A stretch of 64,000 bases of DNA from an uncultured Clostridia bacterium (lineage in GTDB: Bacteria; Bacillota; Clostridia; Oscillospirales; Acutalibacteraceae). The notes below the pieces were generated by a model. That model searched no databases, was not told where the DNA came from, and saw nothing but the letters and a program-made list of their open reading frames with translations. A program made the position numbers and the translations under genes. This document shows positions 34,642-47,059 of this stretch, one piece after another; position 1 is the stretch's first letter, and the number at the start of each line of letters is the position of its first letter. Location: NCBI GenBank assembly GCA_947598155.1, contig CANQFC010000002.1, positions 186,001-250,000 of the forward strand, read 5' to 3'.

Positions 34642-34659
34642 CAAATTGCAAATAAAGTT

Positions 34660-34766
34660 TATCTTCAGGGCGGAGTGCAATTCTCCACCGGTGGTTAAAG
34701 TCCACGAGCTTCGGCTGAACGGGTGTGATTCCCGTACCGACGGTATAGTCCGGATGTAAGAAGATA
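34660..34766 (+). ncRNA. FMN riboswitch (RFN element)
   Basis: Hallmarks of the RFN element are present: P1 strands TATCTTC and GAAGATA, the core AGGGCGGAGTGCAATTC, CCACCGGTGG and GTCCACGAG, and the CCCGTACCGACGGTATAGTC CGGATG segment. It binds flavin mononucleotide and controls the downstream riboflavin transporter by transcription termination. Confidence 0.97.
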
Positions 34767-34791
34767 CGGCAGTATTTCAATAGTCGTAACG

Positions 34792-35520: not shown

Positions 35521-35539
35521 AAATTGTAAATTAAATATA

Positions 35540-35633
35540 CCTTATTAAGAGTGGTCGAGGGACTGGCCCGTTGACGCCACGGCAACCTGCGTTTGCAAGG
35601 TGCTAATTCCTGCGGTTATTCCGAAAGATAAGG
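35540..35633 (+). ncRNA. SAM-I riboswitch (S-box)
   Basis: P1 strands CCTTAT and ATAAGG enclose the S-box core: GAGTGGTCGAGGGACTGGCCC, GCCACGGCAACCTGC, and AAGGTGCTAATTCCTGCGG. Sits 51 bases ahead of metK, a classical SAM-I target. Confidence 0.97.
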
Positions 35634-35639
35634 ACTTTA

Positions 35640-35684: not shown

Positions 35685-36875
35685 ATGGCAAAATTTCTTT
35701 TTACTTCCGAATCTGTTACAGAGGGACATCCGGATAAAATTTGCGACAAAATTTCCGACGCTATTCTGGACGCTATGATAGCGCAGGATAAAATGTCAAG
35801 AGTCGCGTGCGAGACTACCTGCACAACCGGGCAGGTGCTTGTTATGGGTGAAATAACCTCAAAAGCAAACGTTAATATTTCCGAAATCGTAAGAAATACC
35901 GTATGCGAAATCGGATACGATTCAGGCGATAAGGGCTTTGACGGAAATACCTGCGCGGTTTTGGTTGCGCTTGACAAACAGTCACCCGATATAGCCCTCG
36001 GCGTAGACAATTCACTTGAAATTAAAGAAGGCGCAACCGACGCCTACGACCTTTACGGCGCAGGCGACCAAGGTATGATGTTCGGCTTTGCCTGCGACGA
36101 AACGCCCGAGCTTATGCCGTTGCCAATATCAATGGCAAATAAGCTCGCCGTTCAGCTTACAAAAGTCAGAAAGGACGGCACTCTCCCGTATCTTCGCCCC
36201 GACGGAAAAACGCAGGTTACTGTTGAATACGACGAAAACAGAAACCCCGTAAGAATAGACGCAGTTGTTATTTCTTCACAGCACAGCGCGGACGTTTCAC
36301 TTTCTCAAATCCGTAAGGATATTAAAGAGAATGTTATTCTTCCCGTTATTCCAAAAGAGCTTATTGACGAAAACACAAAAATATATATTAACCCGACAGG
36401 CAGGTTTGTAGTCGGCGGGCCCGCAGGCGACTCGGGCCTTACAGGCAGAAAAATCATTGTCGATACATACGGCGGTTATTCACGCCACGGCGGCGGAGCT
36501 TTTTCGGGCAAGGACCCGACAAAGGTTGACCGCTCGGCGGCCTATGCGGCAAGATATGTCGCAAAAAACATTGTCGCCAGCGGCCTTGCAAAGAAATGCG
36601 AAATTCAGTTGGCTTACGCAATAGGCGTGGCAAATCCCGTTTCGGTTATGGTTGACACATTCGGCACAGGCAAAATCAAAGATGAATCTTTAGCGGATAT
36701 TGTTGACCGGGTATTTGATCTCCGTCCGGCCGCGATTATAGAATATCTTAAATTAAGAAATCCGATTTACAAACAGCTCGCCGCTTACGGCCACGTCGGC
36801 AGAACCGACATCGACGTTGTTTGGGAGCACACCGACAAGGCTGACGAAATTAAAAAACTCGCAGAAAATTTATAA
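35685..36875 (+). CDS. metK: S-adenosylmethionine synthetase
   Basis: A 396-residue enzyme making SAM from ATP and methionine. Signature motifs are intact: [15 protein letters not shown] near the start, [12 protein letters not shown], and [22 protein letters not shown] ribosome site directly after the riboswitch terminator, so SAM level controls it by feedback. Confidence 0.98.
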
Positions 36876-40403: not shown

Positions 40404-40433
40404 AAAATAAATCCCCCTGTATTTCAAGGGGGA
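40404..40433 (-). terminator. Terminator between DUF1858 and trmK
   Basis: Inverted repeat CCCCCT (40413-40418) / AGGGGG (40427-40432) plus one closing T-A, 8-base loop, T-rich tail on the minus strand (ATTTATTTT). It separates ileS-DUF1858 from trmK, though trmK's own promoter is not clear. Confidence 0.65.
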
Positions 40434-40655: not shown

Positions 40656-43600
40656 TTACTCTCCTTTTGATACTGAAATTTTAACGTTGTTCCCGTTAAC
40701 GGAAACTGTTTTTGAAAGGTCTGCCGAGATGTCGTCGCCGACAGTGAGCGAATCCGCAAGAAGTTCTGCCGCAATGTAATCCTTCTTTTCGTTCAATGCC
40801 GCGAGCAAAAATTCGGCGTCGGTATTTATAGATGCCGCTATGTGTTGCTCAACCTGATAGCCCGCCTCTTTGCGCAAAAGCTGGCACTGACGTATAATAT
40901 CGCGTACAGCGCCGTCTTTAAGGAGTTCATCTGTGAGCACAACGTCAAGGGCGAGAACGGAATCCGCCCCGAATTCTGCCGAAACAATACCCGATTTTGT
41001 CTTTGAATTAACGGTAAAAATGGAAGAGTCAAATTTTTCGTCAAAACCTGGAACTGCGACCTTGCCGCCCGCCAAAACTTCCTCGGTAACAGCTTTCATT
41101 TCATCGTTTGAAAGATTTTCAAGCGTTTGTTTCATTTTATTTACATTCTGCTTTAAAACTGCTCCCGCAACTTTAAAATTGACCGCGCAGTATTTATCTT
41201 CAAGAAGATTCGCATCGTCGATATACTCAATATTTTTGATATTAAGCTCATCAAGAATATTTTTCTCAAAAGTTTTGATTTTATCAGCTTGATTTTTCTC
41301 ACAGCAAATAAAAAGTTTATTGAGCGGCTGACGGACTTTAATTTGCTGTTCGTTGCGAAGGCGCATTGCAACAGCAATTACATCTCTGGCAAGAGCCGTT
41401 TCTTCAATAATTCCGTTGTCTTCAAATCCTTCAATAACAGCAGGCCAATCGCTCAAATGAACGGACTCGGCGCATTGAGGCTCGCATACTCTAATGAGCT
41501 TTTGCCAAATATACTCTGTCATAAACGGAATTACGGGAGCCATTATCTGAACGCAAATTTTGAGAGCGGTAAACAAAGTCCAATAAGCGAGCATTTTGTC
41601 CTGACCGTTCTCCGTCTTCCAGAAACGGCGGCGATTGGTTCTGATGTACCAATTTGAAATATCGTCAACAAAAACCTCAAAATCTTTAATAAGGAGATAA
41701 ACCTTGTAATCGTCCATATAAGATTGAGCTTTTTTTATAAATTCGTTTGCTCTTACGATAAGCCATTTATCCGTTACGGTCATATTTTCCTTATTCGGTT
41801 TATAATCCGTAAACACAGGCTTATCAATCTGAGCGTAGGTATCAAAGAAAGTATAAATGTTCCAGAATGAGAGCAATTTTCTTCTTGCCTCATCGCCGAG
41901 GTTAAACCCGAATCGCACATCGTTTGTATTCGGCGCGCCTGCATAAAGATAGCGGACAGTATCCGCGCCTATCTTTTCGGCGGCCTCGTCAAATTTAATC
42001 ATAAAACCGGTTTTTGAGAATTTTGAGCCGTCCTCAGCTACAACTGCGCTGTTTGTAAGAACGCGCTCATAAGGCGCTCTGTCCTCAAGAACAGTACTCA
42101 TAAACAGCATTGAATAGAACCAAAGCCTAACTTGCTCGTGCATTTCGGTAACCCATTCGGCAGGGAAATTCTTTTCCCACTCTTTTCTGTCGGTAAAATA
42201 ACCGAAGGTGGAATACGGAACAATACCTGCGTCAAGCCAAACATCGCCTATCTCGGAAACGCGTGAAACCTCTTTTCCGCAGTGCGGACATTTAATTTTA
42301 ATTTCATCTATCCAAGGTCTGTGAAGCTCGGGAAGCGAGTCAACCAATGCAGGGTCAACTGCCTTTTCGCGAAGCTCGGCTTTAGAGCCTATAACCGTTA
42401 CCTTACCGCATTCGCAAGGATAGAACGGCAGCGGCAATCCGTAATAACGCTTACGGGAAATATTCCAGTCGCCCATATTATTGAGCCAGTCAATCATTCG
42501 TTTGCCGTTTGAGGCAGGCTCCCATTTAACTGAATTTGCGTTTTTGATAAGACGGGGTTTTAACTCTTCGGTGCAGATATACCACGCGGGAACAAGCCTG
42601 AATACAACCTCTGATTTACAGCGCCAGCAAACCGGGTAGCTGTGCTCATGCGGCTCAACCTTATAAAGCTTATCGTCTGCCTTTAAATGCTCAAACACTT
42701 CATCGGCAACCGTATGGCTGTCTTTGCCCGTCATCCAGCCGAATCCGTCAAGGTAAATGCCCATATCGTCAATAGGCATAACCTTAGGAAGACCCAAGCG
42801 CTCGCCGAGTTCAAAGTCCTCAACGCCGCATCCGGGGGCAATGTGAACAACGCCTGTACCTTCGTCAGCCGCAACATCCTCCCAAGCGACAACCTTATGC
42901 TCAATACCCTGCTGTGCGGGAATATCGGGGAAACAAGTGTCATAATGCAGCCCTACAAGTTCTTCGCCTTTAAATGCGCGTATAACCTCAGATTTGTCAT
43001 CGCCAAGGTACTTGATAGCATTTTTGGCAAGAATTAAAGTCTTTTTGTCGCTCTTAATTTTAACCTCAACGTAGTCAATATCGGGATTTACCGCCAAAGC
43101 GACGTTAGAAGAAAGAGTCCAAGGAGTCGTTGTCCAAACAAGGATTTTTGAGTCAATCTCTTCTAAAGGAAGTTTAAAAAATACTGAATTATGGGTCATA
43201 AGCTTATAAGAGCCGGTCATTTCGTGCTCTGAAAGCGATGTTCCGCAGCGAGGGCACCACGGCATAGGCTTATATTCGCGCTTAATCCAGCCGTTGTCGT
43301 CGCAAACCTTTAAAAAATGCCAAATTCCTTGAATATTAAGGTCTGTATTTGTGTAATAGGAATTATCCCAATCCATCCACTGACCGAGCCTTTTTGACTG
43401 CTCTGTAATTATACCCGAAAAATGCTTTACACGGTCAACGCACTGGCGTGTAAACTTGTCCATTCCGTAATTTTCGATGTCTTTTTTAGTTTTAAAGCCG
43501 AGTTGCTTTTCAACCTCAACTTCAACCCAAAGGCCCTGTGAGTCAAAGCCGTTCTGCCTGCGGCAGTCATAGCCTCTCATAGACTTATATCGAATAAAAA

Positions 43601-43790
43601 TATCCTTTATACTTCTGCCCCAGGCGTGGTGAACGCCCATGGGATTGTTCGCCGTAATAGGGCCGTCAAGGAAACGGAACATTTTGTTCCCTTTGTTTTT
43701 TGCAACAAGCTTGTCGTAATACTTCTCTTCTTCCCAGAGCTGTAAAATTTCGTGCTCCAGTTCAATAAAGAAATTTTTGTCTTCTGCCAC
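40656..43790 (-). CDS. ileS: Isoleucyl-tRNA synthetase, divergent type with GVHH signature
   Basis: About 1044 residues. I start at GTG 43790, which has AAAGGTGG seven bases upstream; a longer frame to 43844 lacks this. Class I aminoacyl-tRNA synthetase with the WTTTPWTL editing-domain motif, a GGTGVVHIAP-like segment and a KFSKT (KMSKS-type) loop. In the HxGH signature the first and third residues are swapped: residues 52-55 read GVHH, in the context ITANNPMGVHHAWG. This identifies a variant of the IleRS2 type. It is the only ileS in the window and appears to be a housekeeping copy. Own promoter with a very short leader, so no T-box. Confidence 0.93.
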   Translation of the reverse strand: MAEDKNFFIELEHEILQLWEEEKYYDKLVAKNKGNKMFRFLDGPITANNPMGVHHAWGRSIKDIFIRYKSMRGYDCRRQNGFDSQGLWVEVEVEKQLGFKTKKDIENYGMDKFTRQCVDRVKHFSGIITEQSKRLGQWMDWDNSYYTNTDLNIQGIWHFLKVCDDNGWIKREYKPMPWCPRCGTSLSEHEMTGSYKLMTHNSVFFKLPLEEIDSKILVWTTTPWTLSSNVALAVNPDIDYVEVKIKSDKKTLILAKNAIKYLGDDKSEVIRAFKGEELVGLHYDTCFPDIPAQQGIEHKVVAWEDVAADEGTGVVHIAPGCGVEDFELGERLGLPKVMPIDDMGIYLDGFGWMTGKDSHTVADEVFEHLKADDKLYKVEPHEHSYPVCWRCKSEVVFRLVPAWYICTEELKPRLIKNANSVKWEPASNGKRMIDWLNNMGDWNISRKRYYGLPLPFYPCECGKVTVIGSKAELREKAVDPALVDSLPELHRPWIDEIKIKCPHCGKEVSRVSEIGDVWLDAGIVPYSTFGYFTDRKEWEKNFPAEWVTEMHEQVRLWFYSMLFMSTVLEDRAPYERVLTNSAVVAEDGSKFSKTGFMIKFDEAAEKIGADTVRYLYAGAPNTNDVRFGFNLGDEARRKLLSFWNIYTFFDTYAQIDKPVFTDYKPNKENMTVTDKWLIVRANEFIKKAQSYMDDYKVYLLIKDFEVFVDDISNWYIRTNRRRFWKTENGQDKMLAYWTLFTALKICVQIMAPVIPFMTEYIWQKLIRVCEPQCAESVHLSDWPAVIEGFEDNGIIEETALARDVIAVAMRLRNEQQIKVRQPLNKLFICCEKNQADKIKTFEKNILDELNIKNIEYIDDANLLEDKYCAVNFKVAGAVLKQNVNKMKQTLENLSNDEMKAVTEEVLAGGKVAVPGFDEKFDSSIFTVNSKTKSGIVSAEFGADSVLALDVVLTDELLKDGAVRDIIRQCQLLRKEAGYQVEQHIAASINTDAEFLLAALNEKKDYIAAELLADSLTVGDDISADLSKTVSVNGNNVKISVSKGE

Positions 43791-43835
43791 TGTTTTTCCA
43801 CCTTTCAAAGTGTTTACCCATAATTTTACTAATAT

Positions 43836-43863
43836 ATTATACACGAATAATATGAGATTTCAA
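43836..43863 (-). promoter_or_regulatory. Sigma-A promoter of ileS
   Basis: On the minus strand TTGAAA (43863-43858), 16-base spacer, TATAAT (43841-43836). The start codon is about 45 bases downstream. Confidence 0.75.
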
Positions 43864-43907
43864 GTGCATATTACAAAATTCGGCTCATTTTATTTGAAGA
43901 TTACGGT

Positions 43908-43937
43908 AAAAAAATAAGACGGCTATTTTGCCGCCTT
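43908..43937 (-). terminator. Terminator overlapping the spoIIID stop codon
   Basis: On the minus strand AAGGCGGC (43937-43930) pairs with GCCGTCTT (43923-43916), 8 pairs with one G-U, loop AAAATA, then ATTTTTTT. The stop TAG lies in the loop and 3' arm, so the last codons form the 5' arm. Confidence 0.85.
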
Positions 43938-44177
43938 AAGGTATTTTTCTTTAGTTGCGAGCCCGCCCCTGATATGCCGTTCGGATTTATTGATTTCAAG
44001 TATTTCCCTTACCTGCCTGTATAAAACGGGATCATATCTTTTAAGCCGCGATGAAACGTCCGTATGTACTGTGCTTTTACTTACGCCGAACTGTCTTGCC
44101 GTAGAACGCACGGTAGCCCTGTTTTCTACTATATATTCTCCTAACACAATTGCTCTTTCCCTTGACGTATCTATCAT
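43923..44177 (-). CDS. spoIIID: Sporulation transcription factor SpoIIID
   Basis: An 84-residue helix-turn-helix protein that modulates the mother-cell sigma-E regulon. The start RERAIVLGEYIVENRATVRS, the HTH segment FGVSKSTVHTDVSSRL and the end RHIRGGLATKEKYL are those of SpoIIID. Strong GGGAGGAAG ribosome site. It stands alone between two terminators; a sigma-E promoter would be expected upstream but I cannot point to one. Confidence 0.96.
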   Translation of the reverse strand: MIDTSRERAIVLGEYIVENRATVRSTARQFGVSKSTVHTDVSSRLKRYDPVLYRQVREILEINKSERHIRGGLATKEKYLKAAK

Positions 44178-44229
44178 ACATAATCTTCCTCCCTTGCTCG
44201 GTCAGTAGAATATATGAGCAGTGAAAGGA

Positions 44230-44267
44230 AAATATTACAAAGACAGGGCGCTTTAAAACGCCCTGTC
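44230..44267 (-). terminator. Terminator of the PHP-ispE-MBOAT-DHHW operon
   Basis: Perfect 9-base inverted repeat GACAGGGCG (44242-44250) / CGCCCTGTC (44259-44267), 8-base loop, T-rich tail on the minus strand (TTTGTAATATTTT). Confidence 0.85.
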
Positions 44268-44278
44268 CGTGAATAAAA

Positions 44279-45598
44279 TTACAAGGTTGCCTGAAGCTCT
44301 TTCATTAGCTTTTCGTTTCTTATAGCGGAAACATTGTTGATATATAGAACGGTATCAATATTTTTTTCAAGAACGACCTTTGAAACGCTGCCTGAATAGT
44401 GGCGGTAGTCAATAATATAAATATTTTCGTAATTTTCAACGAGGAAAGGTACAAGCGAGTTGGCGAACGATTCCTTTACGACCATTATTGACGAACCGTC
44501 CGTTATCTGCGGATTATGAATTTCGGTATAAGGATTATCCCCTGCTATAAAGCAGCTGTATTTGACGGATTCGGGGTATTTTGAAACGTCGTTGATAATA
44601 GGCCACGAAATTTTATTCCCCTTAGAATCGGTGTAAAACATCGTTGCCGAAGAATTTGGCTTGTAAGCGTAAATTGTATCGGGGTTAGATTTAAGCTCGG
44701 GAATTTTGCCCGTATCGTTATAGAAAGTTCCTCTGAAACCTTCAAATGTTACTTTTTCATATTTATCAAGAGGCTGAGCGGTAATACCCGCGGCATTTGC
44801 AAATTCACAATATGCGTAGTATGCCCCGAGCTGAGTCCAATGGTGGTCTGTATTAAAATAGATATACTCGCTCCTGTGCTGCATAAGCGTTTTAAAAATC
44901 GGCACTTTTATAATCCCGCTTTCTAAACCGCTGTTGATATAGTCGATAGCTTTGCTTTGGTCAGAGCTGTTTATATGCCCCATATAGGCGTCCGGGAGCG
45001 TTATTCCGATACTTGTCGGAACAATCATATCGTAAACCTTGGCTTTGCCAGAAAGCTTTTCCGCAAGCGTATTCATTGAAGAGATATATTTATTTGCCTG
45101 CGGGCGGCTGAAATTATAATATTCAAACGCTCGGTTGCCTACAACAAAAACGGCTCCTATGCTCTGCGAATCTCCGTTCGCGCTTATTTCGTCGTAATTT
45201 TCCTCGGAAACGGCGCTCTCGGTTATATCCGCGTCCGCGTTCGGGTCATATTTATCGGGAATATCATCGCCTTTTTGTACGTCGCCGTGAATGTTGATTG
45301 CGGATTTTATACCGTAATAGCTCTTGATTTTAGAGTTAATGGCGACAATTTTCTCTCTTCCGGGGTAGCTGTCCGAATACCAATCGTTAAACCCGTCGAA
45401 AAAATCGCCGGATTTGAGAGATTCATAGGTCAGCTTAGGAAATTCCGCAAGCTTTCGCTTTTCGGATACAGATTCTTTTGGCCTTAACGGTATAATCAAA
45501 CCGATAATTGAAATTATCGCTATTGTCAGAGCAAACGAACAGCATTGATAGATAACAATTTTTCCCTTATTGCTGCGTTTTCCTTTATTTCTTTCCAT
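44279..45598 (-). CDS. DHHW-family (AlgX/AlgJ-like) surface O-acetylation protein
   Basis: A 439-residue protein with one N-terminal membrane helix (about 19-37) and a large extracytoplasmic part containing the DHHW motif (FNTDHHWTQLGAYYAY), as well as the SGDNPYTE-like and VVKESFANSL segments of the SGNH-type fold. DHHW proteins work with MBOAT acyltransferases, moving acetyl groups to surface polysaccharide. It follows the MBOAT gene by 12 bases. Which polymer is acetylated is unknown. Confidence 0.9.
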   Translation of the reverse strand: MERNKGKRSNKGKIVIYQCCSFALTIAIISIIGLIIPLRPKESVSEKRKLAEFPKLTYESLKSGDFFDGFNDWYSDSYPGREKIVAINSKIKSYYGIKSAINIHGDVQKGDDIPDKYDPNADADITESAVSEENYDEISANGDSQSIGAVFVVGNRAFEYYNFSRPQANKYISSMNTLAEKLSGKAKVYDMIVPTSIGITLPDAYMGHINSSDQSKAIDYINSGLESGIIKVPIFKTLMQHRSEYIYFNTDHHWTQLGAYYAYCEFANAAGITAQPLDKYEKVTFEGFRGTFYNDTGKIPELKSNPDTIYAYKPNSSATMFYTDSKGNKISWPIINDVSKYPESVKYSCFIAGDNPYTEIHNPQITDGSSIMVVKESFANSLVPFLVENYENIYIIDYRHYSGSVSKVVLEKNIDTVLYINNVSAIRNEKLMKELQATL

Positions 45599-45610
45599 AT
45601 TTCCCTCCGA

Positions 45611-47059
45611 TTAAAACTGAAAATACAAAAACGGATTATAACTGCTGCCGACAATGTTGATAAGCGAAAGAACAATAAGCACAGGCGGCAGTACAACAGA
45701 AGATGCGCCGTATATCAAAGAGAAATTTTTCTTATTGATTTTTGAAAACTTAATTTTTCTTGAAATAAATGATACTAACGGAGTACATGCAATTACAGCT
45801 ATTATAATGAAAATAAGATTACCCTTTAAAAGCGTAATTGTTTCAAAGTCGGACGCTGAATTTTTATTGAGGCAGAACATACCTCTAAGAACAGCAGACA
45901 TAACAGACATATTTTCAAATTTAAAAAGCACCCAGCCGAAGTAAACTACAATCAGCAAATAAATATTTGATATTATGGGAATCTTTCCGAGCGTTTTTCC
46001 GAAAAACATTTTTTCGAGAGCTATAAAGACAAAGAAATACAAGCCCCAGAAAACATAATTCCAAGAGGCCCCGTGCCAAAGACCCGTAAGCGCCCAAACA
46101 ACAAAAAGATTAAATATTGTGCGGCCTTTTCCCCTTCTGCTTCCGCCGAGCGGAAAATAGACGTAATCCCTGAAAAATGTTCCCAGAGAGATATGCCATC
46201 TTCTCCAAAATTCGGAAACGGAACGCGAAAGATACGGGTAATCAAAATTTTCCTTATATTCAAGGCCAATCATTTTGCCCATTCCTATCGCCATATCCGA
46301 ATACGCCGAAAAGTCAAGGTAAATCTGCATTGAAAACATAAATATTCCGAGCCAAAGAGAAAGAGCCGATTTATGAGAAATAACTTCTATCGCCTCATCT
46401 GTGTTTATAAGCGAGTCGGATACGACAAAAAGCTCAAAAAGCTTGCCGCACATATTGGCTACGACCGCTTTTTTTGCCAGCCCCACGCAAAATCGGTTAA
46501 TGCCCTCGTTAATTGAAATGACCGTAGGTCTTCTTGAAAGAAGCTGAAGCTCAACATCTTTGTACCTGACAATGGGCCCGGCTATGCACTGGTGAAACAG
46601 AGACGCATAAAGCAAAACTATTCCGTAATTTTTCTGCGCCTTAACATCTCCTCTGTAAACGTCAATAACATAAGACAAAAGCTGAAAAGTGTAAAAGGAA
46701 ATGCCAATCGGCAAAATAATGTTCGGTATCTGCCGAGGAATGCCGAACAAACTTTGAAAATTAAGCAAAGTAAAGCTGCCGTATTTGAAGATGCCTATAA
46801 TTCCCAAATTTACCGCACACGCAATAAAAAGAAAAAGTTTTTTAAAATCTCTGTGTCGCTCAATCAAAATTGCAAACAACCAGTCGCAAAACGACATAAG
46901 CAAAAGCAGAAAGATGTAAACAGGCTCGCCCCAGGCGTAAAACACAAGCGAAAAAACGAGCAGGACGGCATTTTTTTGCTTAATATTTTTTGCATAAAAA
47001 TATGCTAACATACAGAGCGGAAAGAAAACGCACAAAAAATTTAAACTTGCAAAAACCAT
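45611..47059 (-). CDS. MBOAT-family membrane O-acyltransferase (AlgI-like)
   Basis: A 482-residue protein with about 11 membrane helices. The catalytic His lies in TGLWHGASWNYV and the segment SEFWRRWHISLGTFFRDYVY is the MBOAT signature. It carries acetyl groups across the membrane to its DHHW partner, as AlgI with AlgX/AlgJ or DltB. Full length. Confidence 0.95.
   Translation of the reverse strand: MVFASLNFLCVFFPLCMLAYFYAKNIKQKNAVLLVFSLVFYAWGEPVYIFLLLLMSFCDWLFAILIERHRDFKKLFLFIACAVNLGIIGIFKYGSFTLLNFQSLFGIPRQIPNIILPIGISFYTFQLLSYVIDVYRGDVKAQKNYGIVLLYASLFHQCIAGPIVRYKDVELQLLSRRPTVISINEGINRFCVGLAKKAVVANMCGKLFELFVVSDSLINTDEAIEVISHKSALSLWLGIFMFSMQIYLDFSAYSDMAIGMGKMIGLEYKENFDYPYLSRSVSEFWRRWHISLGTFFRDYVYFPLGGSRRGKGRTIFNLFVVWALTGLWHGASWNYVFWGLYFFVFIALEKMFFGKTLGKIPIISNIYLLIVVYFGWVLFKFENMSVMSAVLRGMFCLNKNSASDFETITLLKGNLIFIIIAVIACTPLVSFISRKIKFSKINKKNFSLIYGASSVVLPPVLIVLSLINIVGSSYNPFLYFQF

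Follow-up and report, generated by a model that had tools for sequence, protein, structure and literature searches.

The ileS locus

The window, by which we mean the whole stretch of 64,000 nucleotides that was analysed, carries on its minus strand a gene for an isoleucyl-tRNA synthetase (IleRS), with the following features.

40656..43790, minus strand: ileS, type 2 isoleucyl-tRNA synthetase (open frame, TIGR00392, Pfam, model)
43626..43637, minus strand: GVHH at residues 52-55, where class I enzymes have HxGH (codons read, clade alignment, model)
42009..42023, minus strand: KFSKT replacing KMSKS, the second class I signature, residues 590-594 (sequence read, clade counts)
42045..42053, minus strand: Asn-Ser-Ala, residues 580-582, mupirocin/adenine contact site by alignment to 8c8w
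43836..43863, minus strand: sigma-70-like promoter TTGAAA-16-TATAAT upstream of ileS (11/12 matches, consensus match only)
43915..43938, minus strand: terminator-like hairpin separating ileS from the gene upstream (consensus match only)
40412..40433, minus strand: terminator-like hairpin between ileS and trmK (consensus match only)

The ileS reading frame runs without interruption from 43844 to 40656 on the minus strand. Translation likely starts at a GTG codon (43788-43790), with a AAAGGTGG ribosome site upstream, and ends at the stop codon at 40656-40658, giving a complete product of 1044 amino acids. This protein scores 711.7 bits against the NCBIfam isoleucine--tRNA ligase equivalog TIGR00392, above the cut-off of 621.4. 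Its four Pfam matches include the class I core (PF00133), the anticodon domain (PF08264) and, over residues 844-1043 in the C-terminal region, PF19302 (DUF5915), which we take to be a marker of the type 2 enzyme (IleRS2); no zinc-domain family of the IleRS1 type is among the four. Residues T220-T222, H316 and D325, presumably those of the editing site, are invariant across 28 aligned rows. The AlphaFold2 model (mean pLDDT 90.1, pTM 0.80) has as its nearest solved structures those of the Priestia megaterium IleRS2 (8c8v, 8c9d and 8c8w; TM 0.86-0.87 by query length). The enzyme of the P. megaterium entries (8c8u, 8c8v, 8c8w, 8c9d) shares its fold and domains with the window IleRS at 32-33% identity in the structure alignment; unlike the window enzyme, however, the natural P. 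megaterium IleRS2 has HVGH and KMSKS, and 8c8w is a laboratory GVHH form. The structure matches, the DUF5915 C-terminal domain and the tree described below identify the window enzyme as an IleRS2, as the sequence-only reading had supposed.

The genes trmK, nif3 and rqcH come after ileS on the same strand and were matched in 35, 33 and 30, respectively, of the loci of 80 relatives, as far as those loci reach. The promoter-like site at 43863-43836, a consensus match only at 11 of 12 positions, agrees with the earlier suggestion that ileS has a promoter of its own. The companion suggestion, that the gene lies in a core operon, is doubtful, since terminator-like hairpins, likewise consensus matches, stand on both sides of it. 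Because of these hairpins (43938-43915 and 40433-40412), ileS appears to be transcribed separately from its neighbours trmK, nif3 and rqcH. A T-box leader was sought with Rfam in 43780-44300 and none was found at E up to 1, and T-box control of ileS was rejected on that ground. At gathering score, Rfam matched nothing in 30000-64000 but two ordinary riboswitches on the plus strand, an FMN riboswitch (34657-34769) and, downstream of it, a SAM riboswitch (35539-35634) directly before a gene (35685-36875) that we read as metK-like. On the minus strand, a gene for a DHHW/AlgX-like protein (44279-47059), matched in only 5 of the 80 relatives' loci, adjoins one that we read as encoding a membrane O-acyltransferase-like protein, the two presumably forming an alginate-type acetylation pair.

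The host genome (2.14 Mb in 33 contigs, 99.69% complete) was searched with the protein and with the class I family PF00133, and no second IleRS was found by either route. A second ileS in this genome was rejected on these searches; the outcome that would have refuted the earlier reading, a canonical second copy as the essential one, did not turn up, and the window gene stands as the probable housekeeping copy. The other PF00133 matches are a 900-aa frame with HMGH and KMSKS, which by reading we take to be ValRS-like, and frames of the sizes of LeuRS, MetRS and CysRS, named on the same assumption. MupA and MupB are, like the window enzyme, type 2 IleRS homologues, but the window gene is the only IleRS gene of its genome and lies on a 402-kb contig. 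Its product reaches 592 and 586 bits against the MupA/MupB models NF000257 and NF000258, far under their cut-offs of 1900, and membership of MupA/MupB was rejected. All 194 matches in plasmid records are less than 60% identical to the window IleRS (the top-ranked full-length ones, among the best 40 of 194, are about 33-34% identical), which excludes a plasmid-borne member of the window's clade from these records.

A type 2 enzyme with a swapped HxGH signature

At least 567 confirmed relatives were found in genome contigs. The best 80 of these were kept; by record title, nearly all belong to Oscillospiraceae, Ruminococcaceae or Clostridia that are uncultured or metagenome-assembled, many from gut sites, and the nearest are 93% identical. 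One relative, 56% identical and with GIHH and RFSKT as its two signatures, lies in the complete genome of Oceanirhabdus sp. W0125-5, presumably a cultivated strain. An IleRS tree was built from 40 chosen rows, with ValRS as outgroup and the signature columns removed, by a quick search in which the program warned that long branches meet. With that warning, 30 IleRS2 rows stand together, apart from IleRS1, with support 100. Within IleRS2, the window protein belongs to a clade of 17 sequences (support 100, branch 1.23). A second GxHH clade, of four rows, groups with the HxGH IleRS2s with support 99. The two separate GxHH clades agree with the view of PMC10485003 that GxHH arose two or more times, and the window's clade may correspond to the 'minor clade' (node 747) of that paper.

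The codons at 43637-43626 on the minus strand read GGC GTT CAC CAC, that is Gly-Val-His-His, and confirm the motif at residues 52-55 of the complete, GTG-initiated protein, where, in the model, the first core helix starts. Among 95 distinct clade sequences, including the window, G[IV]HH is present in 90 of 90 readable members, the other five being cut at the site, and a second reading found it in 13 further members beyond the 95. The codons vary silently across the clade, with all four Gly codons in use and both CAC and CAT for each His. The invariance of the residues together with this silent variation indicates that the motif is held by selection and is not an error, and a sequencing error behind GVHH is ruled out.

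With Gly in position 1 and His in position 3 of HxGH, the window enzyme belongs with the IleRS2s that carry Gly or Ala and His at these positions (G/AxHH). The GVHH IleRS2 of the window is real and correctly read; the swap, its effect and its lone housekeeping occurrence were already published in 2023 (PMC10485003). In the parts of that paper open to us, Brkic et al. describe G/AxHH in 86 IleRS2s, with a mupirocin Ki up to 1000-fold higher, and a lone IleRS2 gene as the normal state of such enzymes (PMC10485003). The D. radiodurans IleRS2, with ALHH, has a mupirocin Ki of 6.6 mM, and GVHH versions of two canonical IleRS2s show a Ki raised about 175- and 430-fold (Table 1 of PMC10485003). With the same swap, IleRS1 loses activity; IleRS2 tolerates it because the motif helix is shifted (PMC10485003). 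According to the same sections, NE2 of the third His takes the position of NE2 of the first His in the swapped IleRS2, and the clash of the third His with mupirocin comes from modelling (PMC10485003). The window enzyme shares with these G/AxHH enzymes the type 2 form, the swap of HxGH positions 1 and 3, the lone housekeeping copy and a distribution over two distinct regions of the IleRS2 tree, and differs from them in KFSKT and in the Ala at the site that corresponds to Phe586/His582 (comparison with the available text of PMC10485003). A word search found neither 'Clostridia' nor 'Firmicutes' in the main text of PMC10485003, and the passages of PMC13085705 consulted held nothing decisive on this family.

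Further changes at KMSKS and at the Phe586/His582 site

Across the 95 clade sequences, the second position of the KMSKS signature is Phe and the fourth is Lys in every one. The first position holds Lys 75 times, Arg 17 times, Glu twice and Gln once, the first Lys being lost in 20 of 95; the third is Ser in 91 and His in 4, and the fifth is Thr in 86, Ser in 8 and Asn in 1. The signature of the clade is mostly [KR]FSK[TS], with EFHKS in one genus with small genomes, where it was read in 12 of 12 clade members.

Ala582 of the window IleRS aligns, in the alignment to 8c8w, with His582 of the P. megaterium IleRS2, which corresponds to Phe586 of the IleRS1 of that species (PMC10485003, accessible part). 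At this site the 95 clade rows have Ser (45), Ala (27), Met (11), Thr (8), Tyr (2), Trp (1) or Lys (1), so that Ser, Ala or Thr accounts for 80 of 95. Since all 12 EFHKS members have Tyr there, a small residue is common at the site and not universal. Among 61 HxGH IleRS2s the residue is His in 48 and Leu in 13. In the second GxHH clade, the four members read all have Leu at this site and all keep KMSKS. We therefore reject a general coupling of GxHH with a change in KMSKS and regard the latter as a trait of the window's clade.

Our literature search found no paper on KFSKT in IleRS, and nothing on these variants stood in the titles or abstract openings of the further matches. To our knowledge, no enzyme of the window's clade has been assayed. 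Those assayed in PMC10485003 and PMC4861432 are apparently members of the other IleRS2 clade. Fig. 2b of PMC10485003 may already show the KMSKS change; what is new here is the set of further active-site changes of the clade, its distribution, and the HxGT IleRS1s described below.

Distribution of IleRS kinds, one per genome

In a sample of 150 genomes from the window's family, searched at E up to 1e-60, 140 gave a match and each of these had exactly one IleRS; of the ten without a match, nine are less than 90% complete and one (G024) is 99% complete. The kinds divide into 23 like that of the window (the window and 22 others at 59-74% identity), about 42 HxGH-type IleRS2s (33-39%) and about 75 IleRS1s; these counts come in part from sequences that were read, and a few fragments were placed solely by their identity. 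These kinds were mapped on a DnaE tree of 68 family genomes (70 fetched, two dropped for want of an IleRS label), which includes 20 of the 23 carriers and in which the IleRS1 label of G061 was taken from a fragment. A single sub-lineage of 28 genomes (support 93) contains 18 of the 20 carriers, and therefore the window's kind is mainly inherited vertically in the family. It requires 8 changes on the tree against a shuffled mean of 17.4, at least one of them forced by supported branches. The HxGH IleRS2s are scattered, with 14 changes, a number that 134 of 500 shuffles also reached or undercut, and at least 7 forced.

A genus from a different family is split: of its 41 genomes, 22 carry the window's kind, in one case as a fragment, and the other 19 a kind that is 35-37% identical, with one IleRS each. 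Eighteen of these 19 were read, and all are HxGH IleRS2s; EFHKS GxHH IleRS2s and HxGH IleRS2s thus occur in the same genus. Inside a single family, and even a single genus, one IleRS kind thus takes the place of another, with one in each genome. Outside the family and that genus the window's kind seems to be rare. In a class sample it occurs in at least 3 of 393 genomes, the window included, though fragments could hide more, and in a phylum sample 2 of 299 genomes, again including the window, have a close relative at E up to 1e-220.

HxGT in the IleRS1s of the same family

Among the IleRS1s of the window's family, 68 of about 75 were read, and 52 of these carry HxGT and 16 HxGH. Every HxGT IleRS1 of the family is the sole IleRS match in its genome at E up to 1e-60. 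From the class sample, 50 of the 98 IleRS1s were read, giving 27 HxGT and 23 HxGH, a count biased by the 30 that are best matches to an HxGT query and sharing two sequences with the family count. On a tree of 116 IleRS1 sequences with the motif columns removed (quick search, simple model, one long-branch warning), the His/Thr state changes 11 times, against 32.4 when shuffled, and at least 10 of the changes are forced by well-supported branches. The Phe586 site holds Trp or Tyr in 77 of 78 HxGT IleRS1s and Trp or Phe in 22 of 38 HxGH IleRS1s. Seven IleRS1s have AMHKS, QMHKS or VMHKS in place of KMSKS, a parallel to the EFHKS of IleRS2.

According to Brkic et al., all their IleRS1s have HxGH, and the Methods state that sequences without the catalytic motif were removed (PMC10485003); this filtering may have hidden HxGT IleRS1s. 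Laboratory S. aureus mutants have a His-to-Gln change at the fourth motif position (PMC10485003), and the available part of PMC13029688 lists H67Q, which we infer to be that fourth His, among low-level resistance changes. Our literature search found no report of HLGT in an isoleucyl-tRNA synthetase or of HxGT as a natural IleRS1 resistance form.

Discussion

The reading that we favour, and consider very probable, is that the window encodes the sole IleRS of its cell, a type 2 enzyme with a swapped motif that would confer intrinsic, very high resistance to mupirocin. In the proposed mechanism, motif positions 1 and 3 are exchanged, so that His54, now in the third position, would take over the catalytic role that the first His normally has, while its bulk at that position would block mupirocin. 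We infer for the window's clade that the catalytic substitution and the change in Ki, both shown on other IleRS2s, hold there too. The Ki in this clade could differ in either direction, because the clade is unlike the assayed enzymes at KMSKS and at the Phe586/His582 site. No tie of these bacteria to mupirocin exposure was seen.

The strongest alternative, which we regard as a serious possibility though short of probable, holds that GVHH is an ancient trait of the lineage, retained for reasons that have nothing to do with mupirocin, such as another inhibitor, the balance of tRNA and editing, or drift in a permissive IleRS2 active site, with resistance as a by-product. The motif is fixed in the clade, its inheritance in the family is mostly vertical (8 changes on the DnaE tree against 17.4), and many relatives come from gut samples, as judged from record titles, with no source of mupirocin in view, all of which would fit such a history. 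Yet a second GxHH clade stands apart, in line with the two or more origins given in PMC10485003, and it is on mupirocin that the swap has its known biochemical effect.

It is less probable, and in our view rather unlikely, that the rebuilt pocket, that is KFSKT together with a small residue at the Phe586/His582 site, sets resistance as much as GVHH does and may make it stronger or weaker than in the assayed GxHH enzymes. An invariant Phe in the second place of KMSKS (95 of 95 sequences), loss of the first Lys in 20 of 95, Ser, Ala or Thr at the contact site in 80 of 95 and EFHKS in all 12 members read in one genus would be expected of such a pocket; the overall fold nevertheless matches that of the P. 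megaterium IleRS2, the second Lys of KMSKS is invariant, 15 of 95 sequences have Met, Tyr, Trp or Lys at the contact site, and the 12 EFHKS members have Tyr. That GVHH stems from a mistake in sequencing or assembly, or that the gene is dead, has next to no probability, given the fully open frame, the same motif in relatives 93% identical, the silent variation at its codons and a genome in which no other IleRS was found.

Beyond intrinsic resistance through the swapped motif, a wider and speculative proposal, which we put forward as doubtful, would see in the window's clade a separately built mupirocin-excluding active site, with three contact elements rewritten together: GxHH, [KR]FSK[TS] or EFHKS, and the mostly lost large side chain at the Phe586/His582 site. 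Such a site would be one of four interchangeable IleRS solutions, along with HxGH IleRS2, HxGH IleRS1 and HxGT IleRS1, that swap in these Clostridia under antibiotic pressure, and HxGT would be a natural IleRS1 resistance form.

The HxGT IleRS1s are a natural variant at the position of the His-to-Gln change in laboratory S. aureus mutants, and their majority in the family, if confirmed, would amend the statement in the accessible text of PMC10485003 that natural IleRS1s carry HxGH. With the clade of the window, a little-studied branch of the GxHH IleRS2s comes into view, in which the remaining active-site elements are unlike those of the enzymes assayed in PMC10485003 and PMC4861432, as far as the available text describes them. 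Taken with the lone ileS of the host genome, the swapped motif points to a probable intrinsic, housekeeping hyper-resistance to mupirocin in uncultured Oscillospiraceae-like bacteria, many of them, by record title, from animal guts.
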